Shown here: positions 41,337 to 48,148 of the stretch, in pieces
Position numbering within the stretch: the first letter of the stretch is position 1
How the letters are laid out: the number at the start of each line of letters is the position of its first letter
From: Candidatus Binatia bacterium
GTDB taxonomy: Bacteria; Vulcanimicrobiota; Vulcanimicrobiia; Vulcanimicrobiales; Vulcanimicrobiaceae
Direction: 5' to 3'
DNA: 64,000 nucleotides
Assembly: GCA_035544215.1 (NCBI GenBank)
Contig: DATKHY010000001.1
Span: forward strand, 1 to 64,000
Position numbers and translations under genes: made by a program
The notes under the pieces: model-generated
Told to the model about the DNA's origin: nothing
The model's input: only the letters and a program-made list of their open reading frames with translations
Databases searched by the model: none

Positions 41337-42954
41337 GCTTGAACATGCGCGCGATCTCGTCGGGGCTCAAACGCACCATCGTCGGCCGGCCGTGCGGGCA
41401 GTGCATGGGATTTCGGCAGCCCTGCAGGCGCTCGAGCAGGCTCGTCATCTCCGGGTCGCCGAGCGGCTCGCCGGCGCGCGTTACCGAGTGACACGCGAGC
41501 GACGCCCACACGCGTTCGCGCACGCTGCGCTGCTTCGGTTCGTCGCTCAAGTCGTCGAGGAACTCGTTCAAGTCGAAGGCTCGGGCGCCGTATCCGGCGG
41601 GCGTCGCGACGATGCGATACGAGCGCTCCCCGAACGGCTCGATCTCTAGGCCGCCTTCGCGCAGCGCCTCGAGCGCGCCGTCCAGAGCGGCACTCCGCAC
41701 GGCGTCGAGCTCGACGACGTGCGGTACGAGAAGCGGCTCGCTGGGCGTACGCTCGCCGTTGCCGGCCGCGGCGATGGCCTCATACGCGATGCGCTCGTGC
41801 GCGGCGTGCTGGTCGATCAAGAGCAGCCCCTCGCCGTCGCTCGCGAGGATGAACGTTCGGTGCAGCTGTGCGAGGACGCGTAAGCCGCCGTCGCCGGCCG
41901 CCGGAGCGAACGAGATGGCCGAAGCGCTTTCAGAATCGGTGTATTGCGCGAACCGACCGCGAGCGTGATTGGTAAGTGTTGCCGCGATGCTGCGGCGCAC
42001 CGAGTCGAAGACTTGGCTTGAGTAGCGCAGCCGAACGTCGCTCTTCGTGGGATGCACGTTGGCATCGACGTGTTCCGGCGGAAGCGTCAACTGCAGCACA
42101 CCATATGGATGGCGACCGAGCATCGCAAAGGTCGAGTAGCCGCTGGTCCACGCGCCGGCCAACAGCGTGCTGCGCAACAGCCGCCCGTTCACGAAGAGCA
42201 GCTGCATCCGGCGATCGGGGCGGTCGTAGCCGGGCGCGCTGACGAAGCCGCTCAACGTGCCCTCGAGCGTGCGCGCTGCGCTGCCGTCAAGCGGCAGCAG
42301 CGTCTGCATCGCCTGGCGTCCGAACACCATCGCGAGCCGTTCCCGCTCTTCCGCGCTGGCCGGCATCACCCAGACTTCCTTGCCATCGTGCCGCAGGGTG
42401 AACGCGATCCCGGGGTACGCTAGCGCGAAGCTCGACAACCAGGACGAGATCCGATTGAATTCTGCGCTTGGCGCGCGCAGATACTCGCGGCGCACCGGCA
42501 GTTCCTCGAACAGACCCGCGACGCGGACGCGCGTGCCCACTGGCGCAGCCGCGGGTTCGACTGCGCCGACCGCTTCGGCAAAGGCGGTAACCCGCGCGCC
42601 GACCTCGTCGCTCCGCGGCCGCGAGACGATCTCCGTTCTCGCGACCGCCGCGATCGAGGCGAGGCCCTCGCCACGAAAGCCGAGCGTCGCGATCGATTCC
42701 AGTTGGGCGGCCGTCGTCAACTTGCTCGTGGCGTGCCGGCGCGGCGCGAGCGATAACTCCCCAGCCGGAATGCCGGCGCCGTCGTCGATGACCTCGATCA
42801 CATCAAGGCCACCCTTCTCGACGTTGACGGTAATCCGCGTCGCCCCAGCATCGACCGCGTTCTCGACGAGCTCCTTGACGATCGAGGCCGGACGCTCGAT
42901 GATCTCGCCGGCGGCGATCTGCCCGATCGTTATCGCGTCCAACCTTTGGATCAT
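41329..42954 (-). CDS. mutL: DNA mismatch repair protein MutL
   Basis: A 541-residue MutL. N-terminal GHKL ATPase motifs: IAAGEIIERPASIVKELVEN, DDGAGI, GFRGEGLASI. The C-terminal domain carries the metal-dependent nicking motif LIDQHAAHERIAYE (DQHA-x2-E-x4-E), plus ACHSVTRAGEPL and CPHGRPT, so this MutL should be an endonuclease and no MutH is needed. ATG 42954 overlaps the stop of the upstream transporter as ATGA. Confidence 0.95.
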   Translation of the reverse strand: MIQRLDAITIGQIAAGEIIERPASIVKELVENAVDAGATRITVNVEKGGLDVIEVIDDGAGIPAGELSLAPRRHATSKLTTAAQLESIATLGFRGEGLASIAAVARTEIVSRPRSDEVGARVTAFAEAVGAVEPAAAPVGTRVRVAGLFEELPVRREYLRAPSAEFNRISSWLSSFALAYPGIAFTLRHDGKEVWVMPASAEERERLAMVFGRQAMQTLLPLDGSAARTLEGTLSGFVSAPGYDRPDRRMQLLFVNGRLLRSTLLAGAWTSGYSTFAMLGRHPYGVLQLTLPPEHVDANVHPTKSDVRLRYSSQVFDSVRRSIAATLTNHARGRFAQYTDSESASAISFAPAAGDGGLRVLAQLHRTFILASDGEGLLLIDQHAAHERIAYEAIAAAGNGERTPSEPLLVPHVVELDAVRSAALDGALEALREGGLEIEPFGERSYRIVATPAGYGARAFDLNEFLDDLSDEPKQRSVRERVWASLACHSVTRAGEPLGDPEMTSLLERLQGCRNPMHCPHGRPTMVRLSPDEIARMFKRA

Positions 42955-43574
42955 TCCGGTGACCATACGAGAAACACGACGCCAACGACTGCTATGACCG
43001 CGCCGCTGATCACCTCGCCGTACCTTTCGAACGGTCCAAGCGACAGACGCGCGAGAGCGGCGCGCGAAGAGACGCAGACCACGACGTACGTGGTGATGGT
43101 GCTGATCGCAAAGCACGCAGCCATCGCGGCGAGCAATCCGGCACCGAATCGGGCGGCCGCGAAAAAAGCCGGGATCCCCTCGACCATTGGAGATGAGCCG
43201 AGAATGATCAGCAGCGCCGTGCTGGTTTTGCCGGCGGCCGCGGACTGGGCATGCGGCTCGGCGCGCATCTCGCGCAACGACGCGATTACGATCCATAGGC
43301 CGAACGCGACGAGTGCGAAGCCCGCGAGGATCGATACGACGTTGCCAAGCCGAACCGCCAGCGCTACGCCGCCAAGCCATACGACGACGCCGATGGCGAG
43401 CGTAGACACGGCGTGGCCGAGCCCAGCGATAGCCGCGGCGCCGGCCGTCCGCGCCGCGGTCCAGTTGAACCGCCGCGCGGCGACGGCGATCGGCAGCCAA
43501 TGGTCCGGAACGAGCGTATGTAAGACGCCGACCGCAACGACGGCGCCGAGCAACAGCGCCGGGCCGAACGTCAC
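42951..43574 (-). CDS. NicO/RcnA-like metal exporter
   Basis: A 207-residue membrane protein with six predicted helices. The first helix pair contains LHTLVPDHWLP, an H-x-L-x-P-D-H motif typical of the NicO (nickel/cobalt) and related urease-accessory or TauE-like transporters. A second His lies in GLGHAVSTLAIG. It is encoded directly behind an RcnR-type repressor with a GTGA overlap, which strongly suggests export of Ni(II), Co(II) or a similar metal. Specificity is inferred from the repressor. It lacks the His-rich loop of E. coli RcnA. Confidence 0.72.
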   Translation of the reverse strand: MTFGPALLLGAVVAVGVLHTLVPDHWLPIAVAARRFNWTAARTAGAAAIAGLGHAVSTLAIGVVVWLGGVALAVRLGNVVSILAGFALVAFGLWIVIASLREMRAEPHAQSAAAGKTSTALLIILGSSPMVEGIPAFFAAARFGAGLLAAMAACFAISTITTYVVVCVSSRAALARLSLGPFERYGEVISGAVIAVVGVVFLVWSPE

Positions 43575-43840
43575 CGCAAGTAGGTCCTGACGACTTCCAG
43601 CAACTCTTCCGCCGCGCTCACCTGAGCGCGCGCCTTGGAGGTCAGGACGTGCGTCCTAACGTGTTCCTCGAGCACCTCGGACATCAACGCGTTCATCGCC
43701 CCGCGCGCGGCGGCGATGCGCTGCAGGACGACCCCGCAGCCGGCCTCGGACTCGAGCGCTCGCTCGACTCCCTCGATCTGTCCGCGGATGCGGCGGACCC
43801 GGTTCAAAAGTTGCGTCTTCTTTATGATCGTATGACTCAC
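43571..43840 (-). CDS. RcnR-type metal-sensing repressor (CsoR/RcnR/FrmR family)
   Basis: An 89-residue all-helical repressor. Candidate ligands sit exactly at the RcnR positions: His3 (SHTI), Cys35, His60 and His64, whereas FrmR has Pro2 and no His64 and CsoR uses a Cys-His-Cys set. The middle helix LQRIAAARGAMNALMSEV is the family hallmark. Metal binding should relieve repression. GTG 43840. A palindromic operator lies 26 bases upstream and the exporter gene is translationally coupled downstream. Confidence 0.85.
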   Translation of the reverse strand: MSHTIIKKTQLLNRVRRIRGQIEGVERALESEAGCGVVLQRIAAARGAMNALMSEVLEEHVRTHVLTSKARAQVSAAEELLEVVRTYLR

Positions 43841-43865: not shown

Positions 43866-43884
43866 TATACCCTCTGGGGGTATA
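43866..43884. promoter_or_regulatory. CsoR/RcnR-type operator
   Basis: A 19-base inverted repeat, TATACCC-N5-GGGTATA, with a G-rich centre. It resembles operators of this repressor family (AT ends, G/C tract centre) and overlaps a likely -10 element (TATAGA on the minus strand) of the repressor gene. It also ends 8 bases from the -35 box of the rightward Mg2+-riboswitch promoter. Confidence 0.65.
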
Positions 43885-43892
43885 TGCCGGGG

Positions 43893-43920
43893 TTGACAAA
43901 CGTGCCTTGGGGAGTATCCT
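43893..43920 (+). promoter_or_regulatory. Promoter of the M-box operon
   Basis: -35 TTGACA (43893-43898), 16-bp spacer, -10 TATCCT (43915-43920). Transcription would start at about 43926, right at the 5' end of the riboswitch. Confidence 0.6.
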
Positions 43921-43925
43921 GGTTG

Positions 43926-44105
43926 AGGATTCCTCGTTAGGTGAGGCGTCTGCACGAAAGAATGCCGCTGCCCGGAAAGGTCGAGAGACCCCAACGGGTG
44001 ACCAGATCCCGCCGAATCAAGGCGGAATCTAACGCGGCTGGCCCCGAGCGGAGTCGAAGGGCCGACGTTGTGCAGTGCTAAAGCTCGACACTGAGGGAGA
44101 TGGCG
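43926..44105 (+). promoter_or_regulatory. M-box (ykoK) Mg2+ riboswitch
   Basis: The conserved M-box core is present in order: GTTAGGTGAGGCG, GCCGCTGCCCGGAAAGG, GAGACCCCAACGGGTGACCAG, and later AATCTAACGCGGCTGG and GACACTGAGGGAG. These match the ykoK/mgtE leader family, which folds when Mg2+ is plentiful. A variable arm at about 44040-44067 contains GGCCC/GGGCC and resembles a REP-type repeat. A strong terminator follows at 44130. Genes downstream encode an outer-membrane barrel, an Nramp-related transporter and an MgtC remnant, as expected for Mg2+ control. Exact ends are approximate. Confidence 0.88.
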
Positions 44106-44129
44106 CGGCCAGCCGCGCGAAGTTTCTCG

Positions 44130-44165
44130 AACTGTCGGCCTGCGAGGAGCAGCGACAGTTTTTTT
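44130..44165 (+). terminator. Intrinsic terminator, expression platform of the M-box
   Basis: Stem AACTGTCG/CGACAGTT (8 bp) with inner CTGC/GCAG pairing and a run of seven T. It stands between the riboswitch and the genes, so it is the likely switch: high Mg2+ should favour termination. Confidence 0.8.
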
Positions 44166-44194
44166 ATTGCTGAGAAAGGGGGTGATGCCTCGCC

Positions 44195-44287
44195 ATGGAC
44201 GACGGCCCAGACAGTCGATATCGTAAGCGGCTCGCGATGCGCCGCCTTCACCTGCCGTGTCCGTCCGCTCGGCGCGGCAAACCGTAA
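44195..44287 (+). CDS. Possible 30-residue Arg/Pro-rich leader peptide
   Basis: ATG 44195 to TAA 44285-44287, preceded by AAAGGGGG about 12 bases upstream. The product is rich in Arg (8) and has four Pro. No domain. It sits after the riboswitch terminator and before the next ORF, where a regulatory uORF would be expected. No homology can be judged from here; it may be untranslated. Confidence 0.3.
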   Translation: MDDGPDSRYRKRLAMRRLHLPCPSARRGKP

Positions 44288-44307
44288 AGCAATAGGAGGA
44301 ACGTGTC

Positions 44308-44445
44308 ATGAAGGGGTTTCTGGCATTTCTGCACACCGTCGGACTCACGCTGCGCCCGATCGGGACTTACCACGACGATTCGCTTCGCGCGAATCAGGGA
44401 GATCGCACCCCCAGCTTTAGCTTTTGGCGAGCTCTCGTTAGCTAG
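44308..44445 (+). CDS. 45-residue small protein in the M-box operon
   Basis: ATG 44308 has an excellent AGGAGGA site eight bases upstream. The product begins MKGFLAFLHTVGLTLRPIG, continues hydrophilic (YHDDSLRANQGDR) and ends FWRALVS. It stops 8 bases before the start used for the outer-membrane protein. Two readings are open: a genuine small or leader protein, or the true N-terminus of the next gene separated by a frameshift (FWRALVS would serve as the missing basic n-region of its signal peptide). Confidence 0.55.
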   Translation: MKGFLAFLHTVGLTLRPIGTYHDDSLRANQGDRTPSFSFWRALVS

Positions 44446-44453
44446 GGGTCTCG

Positions 44454-46301
44454 TTGGCCGTCGTGCTGCTCGCGAATATTCAAGTCGCCGCCACAGCAGC
44501 GCCGGCGCCTTCCCCGTCTCCGACGGCGACGCCGCGCTTCGCGCTGCATGTCAGCGGATCGAACGTCTTCGTCGATCAGGCGACCGGCGGTCCCGGCACG
44601 ACGCCGCCCGAGGGTTTCGAGTTCGCGCACGGCTCGCCCATATCGCCGATGTCCCCCTATGACTGGTTTACGGCCGCGCCGATCACGCCCGGCGTCGCCG
44701 GCATCGCGCAGTATGAAATCTCGGGCCTCTACCATGCCGGAGCGGTGGACCTCGGGGCCACGCTCGGAATCGGCGCGCTGACCGGCAGCACGACCAACGC
44801 GCTGTACTGGGGCGAGCCGCCGATCCCCAACTTGAACGATCACGCCATCTCGCGCATCGTTCCGTACTCGATCGTCTTTCCAACGCACGCGGGTCAGGAC
44901 GACGCGAGCGTTTTCAACGCCAGCGTGCTCGGCGGATCCGTCGCCGCCGCGGACGGCACCTGGCGCGTTCGCGGCGGCTATTTCGATTTGAATCAGACCG
45001 ACCGCTTCGTCTTTGCGCCGCCGCCGCTGACGTCCGTGGTTCCCTCGCTCGGCGTGCAGACCGCCGAGACACTCGGCCCGGGCATGCCGTCGATCCAAGG
45101 GTGGACGGCGAGCCCGTCGGCGCTGCCGTTGTTCGGCGCCGACGGCGTGCTGCACGACGGCAACGCGACGCTCGAGCTGACCGATGCGGCCCTGCCGGCG
45201 CTCGCGGGGACGAACGTCCGCTTGACGATGGGCTCGCTCGTGCTCGATCGCGGTGACTACGGCAGGTTCTCGCTACAACTCGCGCACGTCTGGAGCAGCG
45301 GCGCGCCGATCATCACGACGACCTTTTACGGTGTCGATCGGGAGATTCATCCGGGCGCTCAGGGGCGGTTGTTCAGCAGCACGCTCGCCGATCAGGTACA
45401 GACGATCGGCGGCGCGCGCGCCTTCTTCCATCCCGTCAAGAACTGGGACGCGCTCGTCGAGCTCGGGCGCGCGTGGTACGACGCGCGGCTCGTCAGTTAT
45501 CCGGGCACATCGCACTTCGGCAACTACGAGCACTTCAGCCTCGCGCAGCACCTCGGCGACGACGTCGTCACCCTGGAATACCATCGGTTCGATCCGACCT
45601 ACGCCACCATCATCTTGCCGTACGGCATACCCGAGAACGTGTGGAGCATCGCGTGGTCGTGGCCAGGCGTGTGGCTCAAGTCGACCTATCAGCTCGTGGA
45701 CAACACCGTCATCGGCGCGAACCGCGCCGGCGTCCGTCTGAAGTACGATCACGACAACAAGAATCTCGAAGTGCACGTCAGCTTCGGCGATTGGCGGCAG
45801 CTCGTGCCGGAGACGGAGGCAAACGCGTCGCAGGTCGGCTTCGTCGACGGCTTCTTCCTGTTGCAGAAAAACGGATTCGGCACCTTCGGCGAGGACCGGC
45901 AGGCCGGCCTCTACGTGGCCTGGCACCTCAAGAACGACGACCTCGCTTTCGACGGCATCGAAGACTATCTCAGCCGGCGCGCGGATCCGGGTCAGCCGCT
46001 GGACACCGTCGCGACGCGCGCTCCGCAGGCGGCCTTGAGCTGGACGCACCACTTCAGCGACAAGCTGCTCGCCGTCGGCGGCTACGGACGCTACGAGCTC
46101 GCCGGAACGTGGGCGACGACGCCCGTCGACGCGATCTACGGAGACGCGTTCGGTGGCGTGCAGTTCGCGACCGGTCCCCACACCGCGCTGCTCGTCGAGG
46201 CTCGACGCTACGCGCTGGTGGGCCTTCCCTCGATTCCGTACGGGCTTCCCCCGACGATGCGAGGCACGGCACTGATCGTCGACCAGCGGATCGACCTCTG
46301 A
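44454..46301 (+). CDS. Outer-membrane barrel protein of the M-box operon
   Basis: A 615-residue protein. TTG 44454 follows AGGGG. The N-terminus (AVVLLANIQVAATA, then Pro/Ser linker) looks like a signal peptide lacking its basic start. The rest has many amphipathic beta strands ending in aromatic residues (YEISGLYHAGAVDLGATLGIG, WRVRGGYFDLNQ, FSLQLAHVW, AGLYVAWHLK, VGGYGRYEL) and a final strand VDQRIDL. Probably a 16- to 20-strand porin-like channel. Its coupling to the transporter (TGATG overlap) and its riboswitch suggest a Mg2+ or divalent-ion route across the outer membrane. No named family recognised. Confidence 0.65.
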   Translation: MAVVLLANIQVAATAAPAPSPSPTATPRFALHVSGSNVFVDQATGGPGTTPPEGFEFAHGSPISPMSPYDWFTAAPITPGVAGIAQYEISGLYHAGAVDLGATLGIGALTGSTTNALYWGEPPIPNLNDHAISRIVPYSIVFPTHAGQDDASVFNASVLGGSVAAADGTWRVRGGYFDLNQTDRFVFAPPPLTSVVPSLGVQTAETLGPGMPSIQGWTASPSALPLFGADGVLHDGNATLELTDAALPALAGTNVRLTMGSLVLDRGDYGRFSLQLAHVWSSGAPIITTTFYGVDREIHPGAQGRLFSSTLADQVQTIGGARAFFHPVKNWDALVELGRAWYDARLVSYPGTSHFGNYEHFSLAQHLGDDVVTLEYHRFDPTYATIILPYGIPENVWSIAWSWPGVWLKSTYQLVDNTVIGANRAGVRLKYDHDNKNLEVHVSFGDWRQLVPETEANASQVGFVDGFFLLQKNGFGTFGEDRQAGLYVAWHLKNDDLAFDGIEDYLSRRADPGQPLDTVATRAPQAALSWTHHFSDKLLAVGGYGRYELAGTWATTPVDAIYGDAFGGVQFATGPHTALLVEARRYALVGLPSIPYGLPPTMRGTALIVDQRIDL

Positions 46302-47620
46302 TGCAGGCCACGACTACCGCGCGGCTCGTGCGCCCGAGTCTCTGGCGATCGATCATCATGTTTTTGTCGATCGTCGGGCCCGGCATCATCACGGCGAACG
46401 CCGACAACGACGTCGGCGGCATCTGGACCTATTCGCAGGCCGGCGCTCAATTCGGCTACTCGCTGCTGTGGCTGCTGATCCCGATCACGATCGCGCTCAT
46501 CGTCGTCCAGGAGATGTGCGCGCGCATGGGAGCCGTCACCGGGAAGGGCCTGGCCGATCTCATCCGCGAGAATTTCGGCGTCAAGATAACGTTCTGGTGC
46601 CTGCTGCTCTTCGTCTTGGGCGACATCGGAAACACCGCCACCGAGTTCGCCGGTGTCGCGTCTTCCGCACCGATCTTCGGCGGTTACCTGCACGTGCCCA
46701 ACGCCGAGGCGTTCAAGATCGCGCTGGTTGTGGGCGCCGCGATCTTCGTCTTCACGACCGTGACCCGTGGCACGGCCAAGATGGTCGAGCGCGTCTTCTT
46801 CGTCTTTTGCTTCGTCTACGTCGCTTACGTGATCAGCGCTTTCGCCGTGCATCCCCCGTGGGGCGACGTGCTGCGTCAGAGCGTGATCCCGCACTTCCAG
46901 GCCTCGAAGGCGTACATCATCATGATCATCGCCGTGATCGGCACGACGATCTCGCCGTGGATGCAGTTCTACATTCAGGCCGCCGTCGTCGAGAAGGGCG
47001 TGAGGGAGGACGACTACGCGTACTCGCGCCTCGACGTCGTTGCGGGCGGCATATGGACCGACGTGATCGCCTATTTCATCATCGTGGCCTGCGCCGCGAC
47101 GATCTGGATCCACAACCTCCACGCCGCGCACCCGATCAGCGTGAACAACGACGTCAGCGACGTCGCCGCCGCACTCGTACCCATCGCCGGCAAATTCTCC
47201 GCGTTGCTGTTCGGCATCGGGCTGCTCAACGCCGCGGTCTTCACCGCTTCCATCCTGCCGCTGTCGACAGCCTATTACGTCTGCGAGGCGTTTGGGTTCG
47301 AGCGCGGCGTCGACCACCGGTTCTTCGACGCGCCGATCTTTTACGGGTTCTACCTTGCACTCATCGTCATCGGCGCGGGAGCCGTCATCATTCCCGGGGC
47401 GCCGCTGGGCGCGATCATCTTCTACTCGCAGGTTCTCAACGGCATGCTCCTGCCGATCGTTCTCGTGCTAATGCTGCTGCTCATCAACAACAAACGCCTG
47501 ATGGGATCCTGGACGAACAGCCGGACCTTCAACATCATCGCCTGGGCGACCGCGATCATCGTCGGGGCGCTCACGCTCGTGTCGACGGCGCAGATCGTCT
47601 TCCCGCAGCTGGGAAGTTAG
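46301..47620 (+). CDS. Nramp-related Mg2+ transporter (NRMT-like)
   Basis: A 439-residue member of the Nramp superfamily with about eleven helices. In helix 1 the canonical DPGN metal motif is replaced by NADNDVGG, and helix 6 reads GTTISPWMQFYIQAAVVEKG without the Met-Pro-His motif of Mn/Fe transporters. Loss of those soft ligands and control by an M-box match the Nramp-related magnesium transporters first described in Clostridium. I infer Mg2+ uptake across the inner membrane. ATG 46301 overlaps the previous stop. Confidence 0.8.
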   Translation: MQATTTARLVRPSLWRSIIMFLSIVGPGIITANADNDVGGIWTYSQAGAQFGYSLLWLLIPITIALIVVQEMCARMGAVTGKGLADLIRENFGVKITFWCLLLFVLGDIGNTATEFAGVASSAPIFGGYLHVPNAEAFKIALVVGAAIFVFTTVTRGTAKMVERVFFVFCFVYVAYVISAFAVHPPWGDVLRQSVIPHFQASKAYIIMIIAVIGTTISPWMQFYIQAAVVEKGVREDDYAYSRLDVVAGGIWTDVIAYFIIVACAATIWIHNLHAAHPISVNNDVSDVAAALVPIAGKFSALLFGIGLLNAAVFTASILPLSTAYYVCEAFGFERGVDHRFFDAPIFYGFYLALIVIGAGAVIIPGAPLGAIIFYSQVLNGMLLPIVLVLMLLLINNKRLMGSWTNSRTFNIIAWATAIIVGALTLVSTAQIVFPQLGS

Positions 47621-47628
47621 CGTCGTGA

Positions 47629-48148
47629 CCAGCCGCGATCGGCGTCGAGCGTCAGTGGCGCCAGCGCATGGCCGGCCTGCGCACGAACGCGCTCGTCGCC
47701 GTCGGCGCCGCGCTCTTCGCGTCGATCTCGATCCTCATGAACGCGCGAAACAATCCGACCCAAGTAGCCGCCTACGTCGTGTCCGGCGTAGGATTCCTAA
47801 CCGGTGCGGCCGATCGTTGCGCGGATCAACCGCCAGCCGCTCGATCAAACGGAGCTCTCCCAGGTGTACGAGATCGCGGTGACTTCCAACGCGCAGAAGG
47901 AGGAGGCCGTCCGCGCAAGCACGCTCGCGCAGATCCGCGCGACCACTCTGTCACTACGCTCCTTGGAGAGCCACGACGTGGATCAGAGCCACGTCCGCGT
48001 CAAGGCCACGGTCGCCACCACGGCGCGCGCCGACGCGAAACTCGAGCGCATCGTCGGCCGGCTGAGCCTCGATCCGGCGATCGTCGCGGCGAGCTGGCGC
48101 GTGGCGGCCCTCGAGAATCACGAATCGGTCGACGAGGCCGAGGAGTGA
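47629..48148 (+). pseudogene. mgtC/sapB remnant
   Basis: Starting right after the transporter, one frame reads IGVERQWRQRMAGLRTNALV..VVSGVGFLTGA, the conserved MgtC N-terminal block but without helix 1. A second frame (from about 47804) reads VRPIVARINR and continues to the stop at 48148 as the ACT-like C-terminal domain. Some 50-70 residues of the membrane part are missing between the two, with loss of frame. MgtC modulates Mg2+ homeostasis or ATP synthase in other bacteria and fits this operon, but this copy cannot make a normal protein. Confidence 0.75.

Follow-up and report, generated by a model that had tools for sequence, protein, structure and literature searches.

Magnesium import in Gram-negative bacteria is usually described at the inner membrane only, with passage across the outer membrane left to general porins. 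The locus described here raises the question of whether some bacteria also make outer-membrane entry responsive to Mg2+. It lies in a stretch of 64,000 nucleotides (the window; positions 1 to 64,000 of contig DATKHY010000001.1, assembly GCA_035544215.1) from a Candidatus Binatia bacterium placed by GTDB in the Vulcanimicrobiaceae, where an M-box, a Mg2+-sensing riboswitch, precedes genes for a protein of about 45 residues, an outer-membrane β-barrel and a transporter of the Nramp-related Mg2+ transporter (NRMT) clade. We read the locus, with a probability of roughly 0.6, as a magnesium-starvation operon that equips both membranes, the barrel being a porin-type channel that raises the periplasmic Mg2+ supply for NRMT.

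The Mg2+-sensing leader and its operon

An earlier note on this DNA, made from its letters alone, had pointed to an M-box with a promoter just before it and a strong terminator behind it, and all three are borne out. The aptamer (ykoK leader; 43926-44102, + strand) matches RF00380 over its full length (model positions 1-169) with 126.6 bits (E 5.2e-28) against a gathering score of 44, and is the single match to this model in the 3.23-Mb host genome. A consensus scan places a promoter-like site at 43893-43920 (+), with -35 TTGACA, a 16-nt spacer and -10 TATCCT (1 found vs 0.3 in shuffled sequences); TTGAC and GTATCCT line up in most of nine genus members, and, with the last base of this pair at 43920, transcription is expected to begin at the aptamer. 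The intrinsic terminator ACTGTCGGCCTGCGAGGAGCAGCGACAGTTTTTTT, a hairpin followed by a T-run, occupies 44130-44167 (+; -17.1 kcal/mol, z -3.0), and its stem and T-run are kept in the nine genus members. A simple terminator scan did not pick up the hairpin at this position. Terminator-type hairpins follow 24 of 26 M-boxes that have a barrel downstream and 88 of 118 M-boxes phylum-wide, compared with 2 of 97 random stretches.

Between these elements lies a predicted antiterminator (44083-44140, +) in which GCTCGACACTGAGGGAGA pairs with TTTCTCGAACTGTCGGC, its 5′ arm being common to aptamer helix P1 and its 3′ arm common to the terminator; it is incompatible with both, making the folds mutually exclusive. 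The segment that opens with the 3′ arm of P1 and closes with the 5′ arm of the terminator hairpin forms one long helix in 9/9 genus members (-25 to -31 kcal/mol), and the whole leader, folded computationally without Mg2+, has this helix in its ground state. An exclusive antiterminator that is the ground state without Mg2+ therefore gives the leader the anatomy of a transcriptional OFF switch, and we predict that it acts as one in response to Mg2+. Another candidate pairing, GGCCGAC (44060-44066) with GTCGGCC (44134-44140), fitted the window only, with no conservation in the genus, and was replaced by the P1-arm pairing.

The barrel gene ends in a TGA that shares one base with the ATG of NRMT (46301), so the one-base overlap of a barrel-like and an Nramp-superfamily reading frame given in the earlier note holds, and the second protein can now be named more closely. 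The transporter (439 aa; 46301-47620, +; PF01566 1.5e-89) has the solved structure EleNRMT 7QIA as its nearest relative (E 3.4e-91), followed by MntH (4.9e-23). NRMTs carry DxxG in helix 1 and TxxA or TxxT in helix 6, with no binding-site Met (PMC8806188); the window protein has DVGG in helix 1 and TTIS in helix 6, so that the Thr is kept, Met is absent and Ser replaces Ala/Thr at the fourth position. This Ser is common to all close relatives, and a Trp follows it, as in EleNRMT. Judged by sequence, membership of the NRMT clade is good; an M-box-free NrmT of Acidobacterium acted as a Mn transporter (PMC4072509), and sequence alone therefore cannot settle whether the window protein transports Mg2+. 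A second, longer NRMT-clade paralogue (about 530-550 aa, with an N-terminal extension and DAGA in helix 1; L086:5562-7211, L073:5630-7228 and L175) also occurs behind M-boxes.

Two further parts of the operon had been missed by the earlier note. Directly after NRMT lies a broken mgtC (47638-48148, +), whose N-terminal part (47638-47808) and C-terminal part (47804-48148) are in different frames (PF02308, PF21770); relative to the intact homologue (tblastn with the MgtC of L065/L066) it lacks residues 1-19 and 77-125, and the N-terminal membrane domain is not intact. The gene following NRMT is intact in the relatives L065, L066 and L068. Between terminator and barrel, a small open reading frame (ORF) of 45 aa (MKGFLAFLHTVGLTLRPIGTYHDDSLRANQGDRTPSFSFWRALVS; 44308-44445, +) lies behind an AGGAGG ribosome site. 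Nine genus members retain its frame, start and stop; among them its length changes by whole codons and its third codon position varies most. The protein matches no Pfam family; its consensus reads MKxxLAFL...H(D/N)DxLRANQ...FSxWRALV. A profile search of 149 Eremiobacterota genomes, made blind to M-boxes, gave 29 strong matches, 25 of which lie 94-387 nt downstream of an M-box, mostly at about 205 nt. At L267:4273-4413 (G038) small ORF and NRMT are kept with no M-box above the Rfam cut-off in front, and one copy (L266; G054:C9:121821-121955) is remote from every M-box, comparable to the M-box-independent paralogue described in M. tuberculosis.

The barrel, its genomic company and its replacement

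The barrel protein (615 aa; 44454-46301, +) has an N-terminal signal-like stretch and a Pro/Ser-rich linker, and the N termini of its relatives look like signal peptides. What the earlier note called barrel-like is modelled by AlphaFold2, from the family alignment, as a confident β-barrel (pLDDT 86.9, pTM 0.85) of about 20 or more strands that starts at residue 28. In the PDB its fold is matched by outer-membrane porins, receptors and ushers, with the best scores for Occ porins and TonB-receptor barrels (Z about 15). The window protein belongs to no family in Pfam or NCBIfam, 42 family members gave no Pfam match, and searches of the PDB with its sequence and profile, and of a plasmid collection, returned nothing. 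The barrels are acidic, with a mean net charge of -14 (-23 in the window copy) versus -5 for other proteins of 450-800 aa. Residues 392-411, a low-confidence stretch of the model that includes WSIAWSWPG, rank with the most conserved parts and may line or gate the pore. The host genome encodes LpxC (1.7e-86) and Omp85 (1.3e-19), that is, an outer membrane and the barrel assembly machinery, and in the one member of the phylum in culture the cell wall is of typical Gram-negative build, with a lipopolysaccharide (LPS) outer membrane (PMC9758169).

Weak matches to the barrel in other classes of the phylum are proteins with an SLH domain. When the barrel profile was compared by hhalign with these SLH-anchored barrels, the match reached 99.3% (E 2.1e-20) over 529 columns, and the M-box barrel is therefore their anchor-less cousin: no SLH domain was matched by Pfam in the 42 family members, whereas homologues of other classes carry it. 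The barrel thus resembles the OmpM/SlpA proteins of Terrabacteria (PMC10628300, PMC9388160) through its homology to SLH-anchored barrels in other classes of its own phylum, and differs from them in having neither SLH anchor nor stalk and in standing under a Mg2+ riboswitch; SLH-anchored OmpM itself is reported to be both tether and nutrient channel (PMC10628300). Homology to OprB porins was not accepted, as hhalign (76.7%) aligned only the signal, the linker and a short motif.

The same 149 genomes were used for the barrel, M-box and NRMT searches, with four very weak barrel matches excluded from the counts and gene calls on relatives' contigs taken from a simple codon-usage script. Barrels occur in 54 of the genomes, M-boxes in 96 and NRMT relatives in 129. 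An M-box lies at most 4 kb upstream on the same strand of 27/56 barrel genes, where 0.037 would be expected, so the family is not found mostly away from Mg2+ genes. The M-box-linked barrels span 11 genera and at least six gene orders: M-box-barrel-NRMT, with or without MgtC; M-box-NRMT-barrel; M-box-long NRMT-barrel, again with or without MgtC (all in one unit in genome G118, with the M-box at 739684-739849 and the barrel at 742483-744315); M-box-NRMT-MgtC-barrel; M-box-MgtE_N-NRMT-barrel; and M-box-barrel alone. Downstream of the 112 M-boxes with enough sequence we found NRMT 91 times, MgtE_N 43, the barrel 26, the small ORF 25 and MgtC 12, so that the partners of M-boxes are almost only Mg2+ genes. 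Some further barrel genes adjoin NRMT or MgtC without an M-box. The constant company of NRMT and M-box that the earlier note proposed to check thus holds in part: the M-box is there at 27 of 56 genes and missing nearby from the other half or so, NRMT is often absent, and the M-box frequently has the barrel as its sole target.

Nearly all named contigs with a barrel are metagenome-assembled genomes (MAGs) of Eremiobacterota, and the host of the window, a soil bacterium, is accordingly assigned to this little-studied phylum (Candidatus Eremiobacterota, WPS-2). One contig filed as an Acidobacteriaceae MAG (L149) has a barrel 83% identical to an Eremiobacterota copy and the same aquaporin-like neighbour, and is probably mis-binned for that reason. 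At L084:8577-9119 and L087, M-box and barrel are followed by a Mntp-type Mn efflux gene; Mn2+ export may there be tied to Mg2+ starvation.

The best evidence here for what this operon slot is for comes from a replacement of the barrel. In G048, a member of the same genus without the barrel, the M-box is followed by the small ORF, a 458-aa protein and NRMT, and the 458-aa protein is an OprB-family porin (PF04966, 5e-28), a family whose model matches 0/42 barrel members at E up to 1. The G033 locus comprises an M-box, the small ORF, the long NRMT, OprB and MgtC, and in G127 an M-box stands ahead of an OprB gene; the OprB-family porins behind M-boxes lie at L199:4236-5609 (-), L175:2784-4112 (+) and L223:1633-3027 (+), one of them exactly in the barrel slot. 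A different porin family in that position argues that the slot is one for an outer-membrane channel. A further putative outer-membrane family, with a weak Phenol_MetA_deg match, lies behind M-boxes or the small ORF at L167:1262-2107 (+) and L250:5049-5633 (-).

Weighing the readings

The barrel is most likely an outer-membrane cation channel made at low Mg2+. At high cytosolic Mg2+ the M-box would fold, helix P1 and the terminator would form, and transcription would stop; at low Mg2+ the freed 3′ arm of P1 would make the antiterminator and RNA polymerase would read on, yielding the ~45-aa protein, the barrel and NRMT, plus MgtC in relatives where it is intact. Inserted in the outer membrane with its LPS, the barrel would then act as an acidic channel of porin type and raise the periplasmic supply of Mg2+, probably of cations in general, and NRMT would carry periplasmic Mg2+ across the inner membrane. 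Computation establishes the RNA with its expression platform, the operon, the barrel fold, the outer membrane, the local linkage, the replacement by a porin and the conservation of the small protein; conductance and cation preference of the barrel, increased Mg2+ uptake, joint work with NRMT and a role for the small protein are what we infer. The cross-envelope Mg2+ route of the earlier note is partly supported, by local linkage and by the OprB porin of the same slot, while passage of Mg2+ and cooperation with NRMT stay conditional. Taken together, the findings suggest that these bacteria open a dedicated outer-membrane route at Mg2+ shortage.

Several observations weigh against this. Roughly half of the barrel genes lack an M-box in their vicinity (in five of these cases the contig stops no more than about 0.9 kb upstream), and a hidden one did not turn up when 25 such loci were scanned with the whole of Rfam. 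Three members of the same genus, G042, G050 and G051, keep M-box and NRMT without the barrel, which must therefore be dispensable; it is an accessory, because many genomes have NRMT and no barrel. Co-occurrence of barrel and M-box by genome within the class is not significant (45/9 vs 51/12, p 0.81), and the evidence is therefore one of local linkage. The neighbours of some barrels are genes for a Ni/Co-type permease, for Mn efflux or for K+ transport. In well-studied Gram-negatives Mg2+ crosses through general porins, so that the cell may have no need of a special channel.

The operon can be compared with the pe20 locus of M. tuberculosis, which has an M-box, the small ORF rv1805A, PE20/PPE31, Rv1810 and MgtC (PMC12810186). 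PE20/PPE31 stand under the control of that M-box (PMC12810186) and reportedly serve Mg2+ uptake (PMC7312605), so that an outer-membrane step regulated by Mg2+, which the earlier note placed outside standard bacterial Mg2+ import, has a precedent. Both loci share M-box control, a conserved small ORF in first place, proteins for Mg2+ uptake across the outer membrane and MgtC. They differ in that the mycobacterial proteins are PE/PPE proteins of the mycomembrane rather than a β-barrel, that the platform there is translational/Rho rather than an intrinsic terminator, and that NRMT is absent; the proteins are unrelated to those of the window, and the likeness of the small ORFs is one of position. 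A more ambitious form of our reading would make the two convergent, with a Mg2+-selective, anchor-less, M-box-switched barrel through the LPS outer membrane that is aided or tuned by the ~45-aa protein; this is possible, but we regard it as doubtful.

Alternatively, the barrel could be a porin for cations generally, or for Mn, Ni, Co or K, that came under the M-box in some lineages and under other control elsewhere and whose main load is not Mg2+. The half of the family without an M-box fits this, as do the Ni/Co-type permease adjoining the barrel in L078, L082, L105 and L106, the Mntp in L084 and L087, and the Kup K+ transporter in L102. However, Mg2+ genes are by far the commonest partners of the barrel, and where M-box and barrel stand alone Mg2+ is the only known signal, which makes this explanation rather unlikely.

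It is unlikely, too, that the barrel is an envelope-adaptation protein and no Mg2+ channel, one that keeps the outer membrane stable once the Mg2+ bridges between LPS molecules are lost. Such proteins exist: OprH of Pseudomonas is an outer-membrane stabiliser made at low Mg2+. M-box control and the LPS genes would fit, and the SLH-anchored homologues belong to the outer-membrane-tethering class (PMC10628300). The window barrel, though, is large (about 20 or more strands) and net acidic and so does not look like a small LPS-binding barrel; it has no SLH anchor, and an OprB porin takes its slot in G048.

A ligand-gated receptor importing a Mg2+ complex with TonB energy is very improbable: TonB-receptor barrels do rank high as fold matches (Z 13-15), but no plug family was found in the 42 family members, and in the window protein the barrel begins as early as residue 28. 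That the barrel rides in a Mg2+ operon by chance, as the many M-box operons without it might suggest, is hardly credible beside 27 observed linkages against 0.037 expected, six gene orders, 11 genera and another porin family as replacement.

Neighbouring genes, known systems and significance

Outside the operon, two divergent neighbours lie upstream. One is a CsoR/RcnR-family metal-sensing repressor (43571-43840, - strand; PF02583 1.1e-22), whose sequence has His3, Cys35, His60 and His64; the other is a membrane protein with an HTLVPDH motif (42951-43574, - strand; sequence reading, with weak Pfam/NCBIfam matches), possibly a Ni/Co-type permease. Just ahead of the M-box promoter, at 43866-43884, lies a palindrome, TATACCCTCTGGGGGTATA, that is found mainly in relatives that keep the repressor and is thus probably its operator.

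The inner-membrane partner of MnoP in Bradyrhizobium is MntH, an Nramp protein. MnoP is an outer-membrane protein devoted to one divalent metal and required when that metal is scarce; the metal is Mn2+, its regulation is different, and it is likened to the window barrel by role (PMC9334652). NrmT/NRMT operons (PMC4072509, PMC8806188) share with the window an M-box followed by an NRMT-clade transporter, with a gene for an MgtE-like N-domain in many relatives; the barrel and the small ORF are added here, and PMC4072509 makes no mention of the outer membrane. In open-licence papers, we found no report of an M-box-controlled β-barrel.

Control of an outer-membrane barrel by a Mg2+-sensing RNA thus recurs, in some cases with no other evident target beside the barrel, and a porin of another family can stand in for it. 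The small protein is a second M-box-linked component. The cultivated Vulcanimicrobium alpinus WC8-2 (DSM 115291) is taken to carry a version of the unit, which opens the question to experiment. Together with the M. tuberculosis parallel, the control of the barrel and its swap suggest that entry through the outer membrane can limit the supply of Mg2+.

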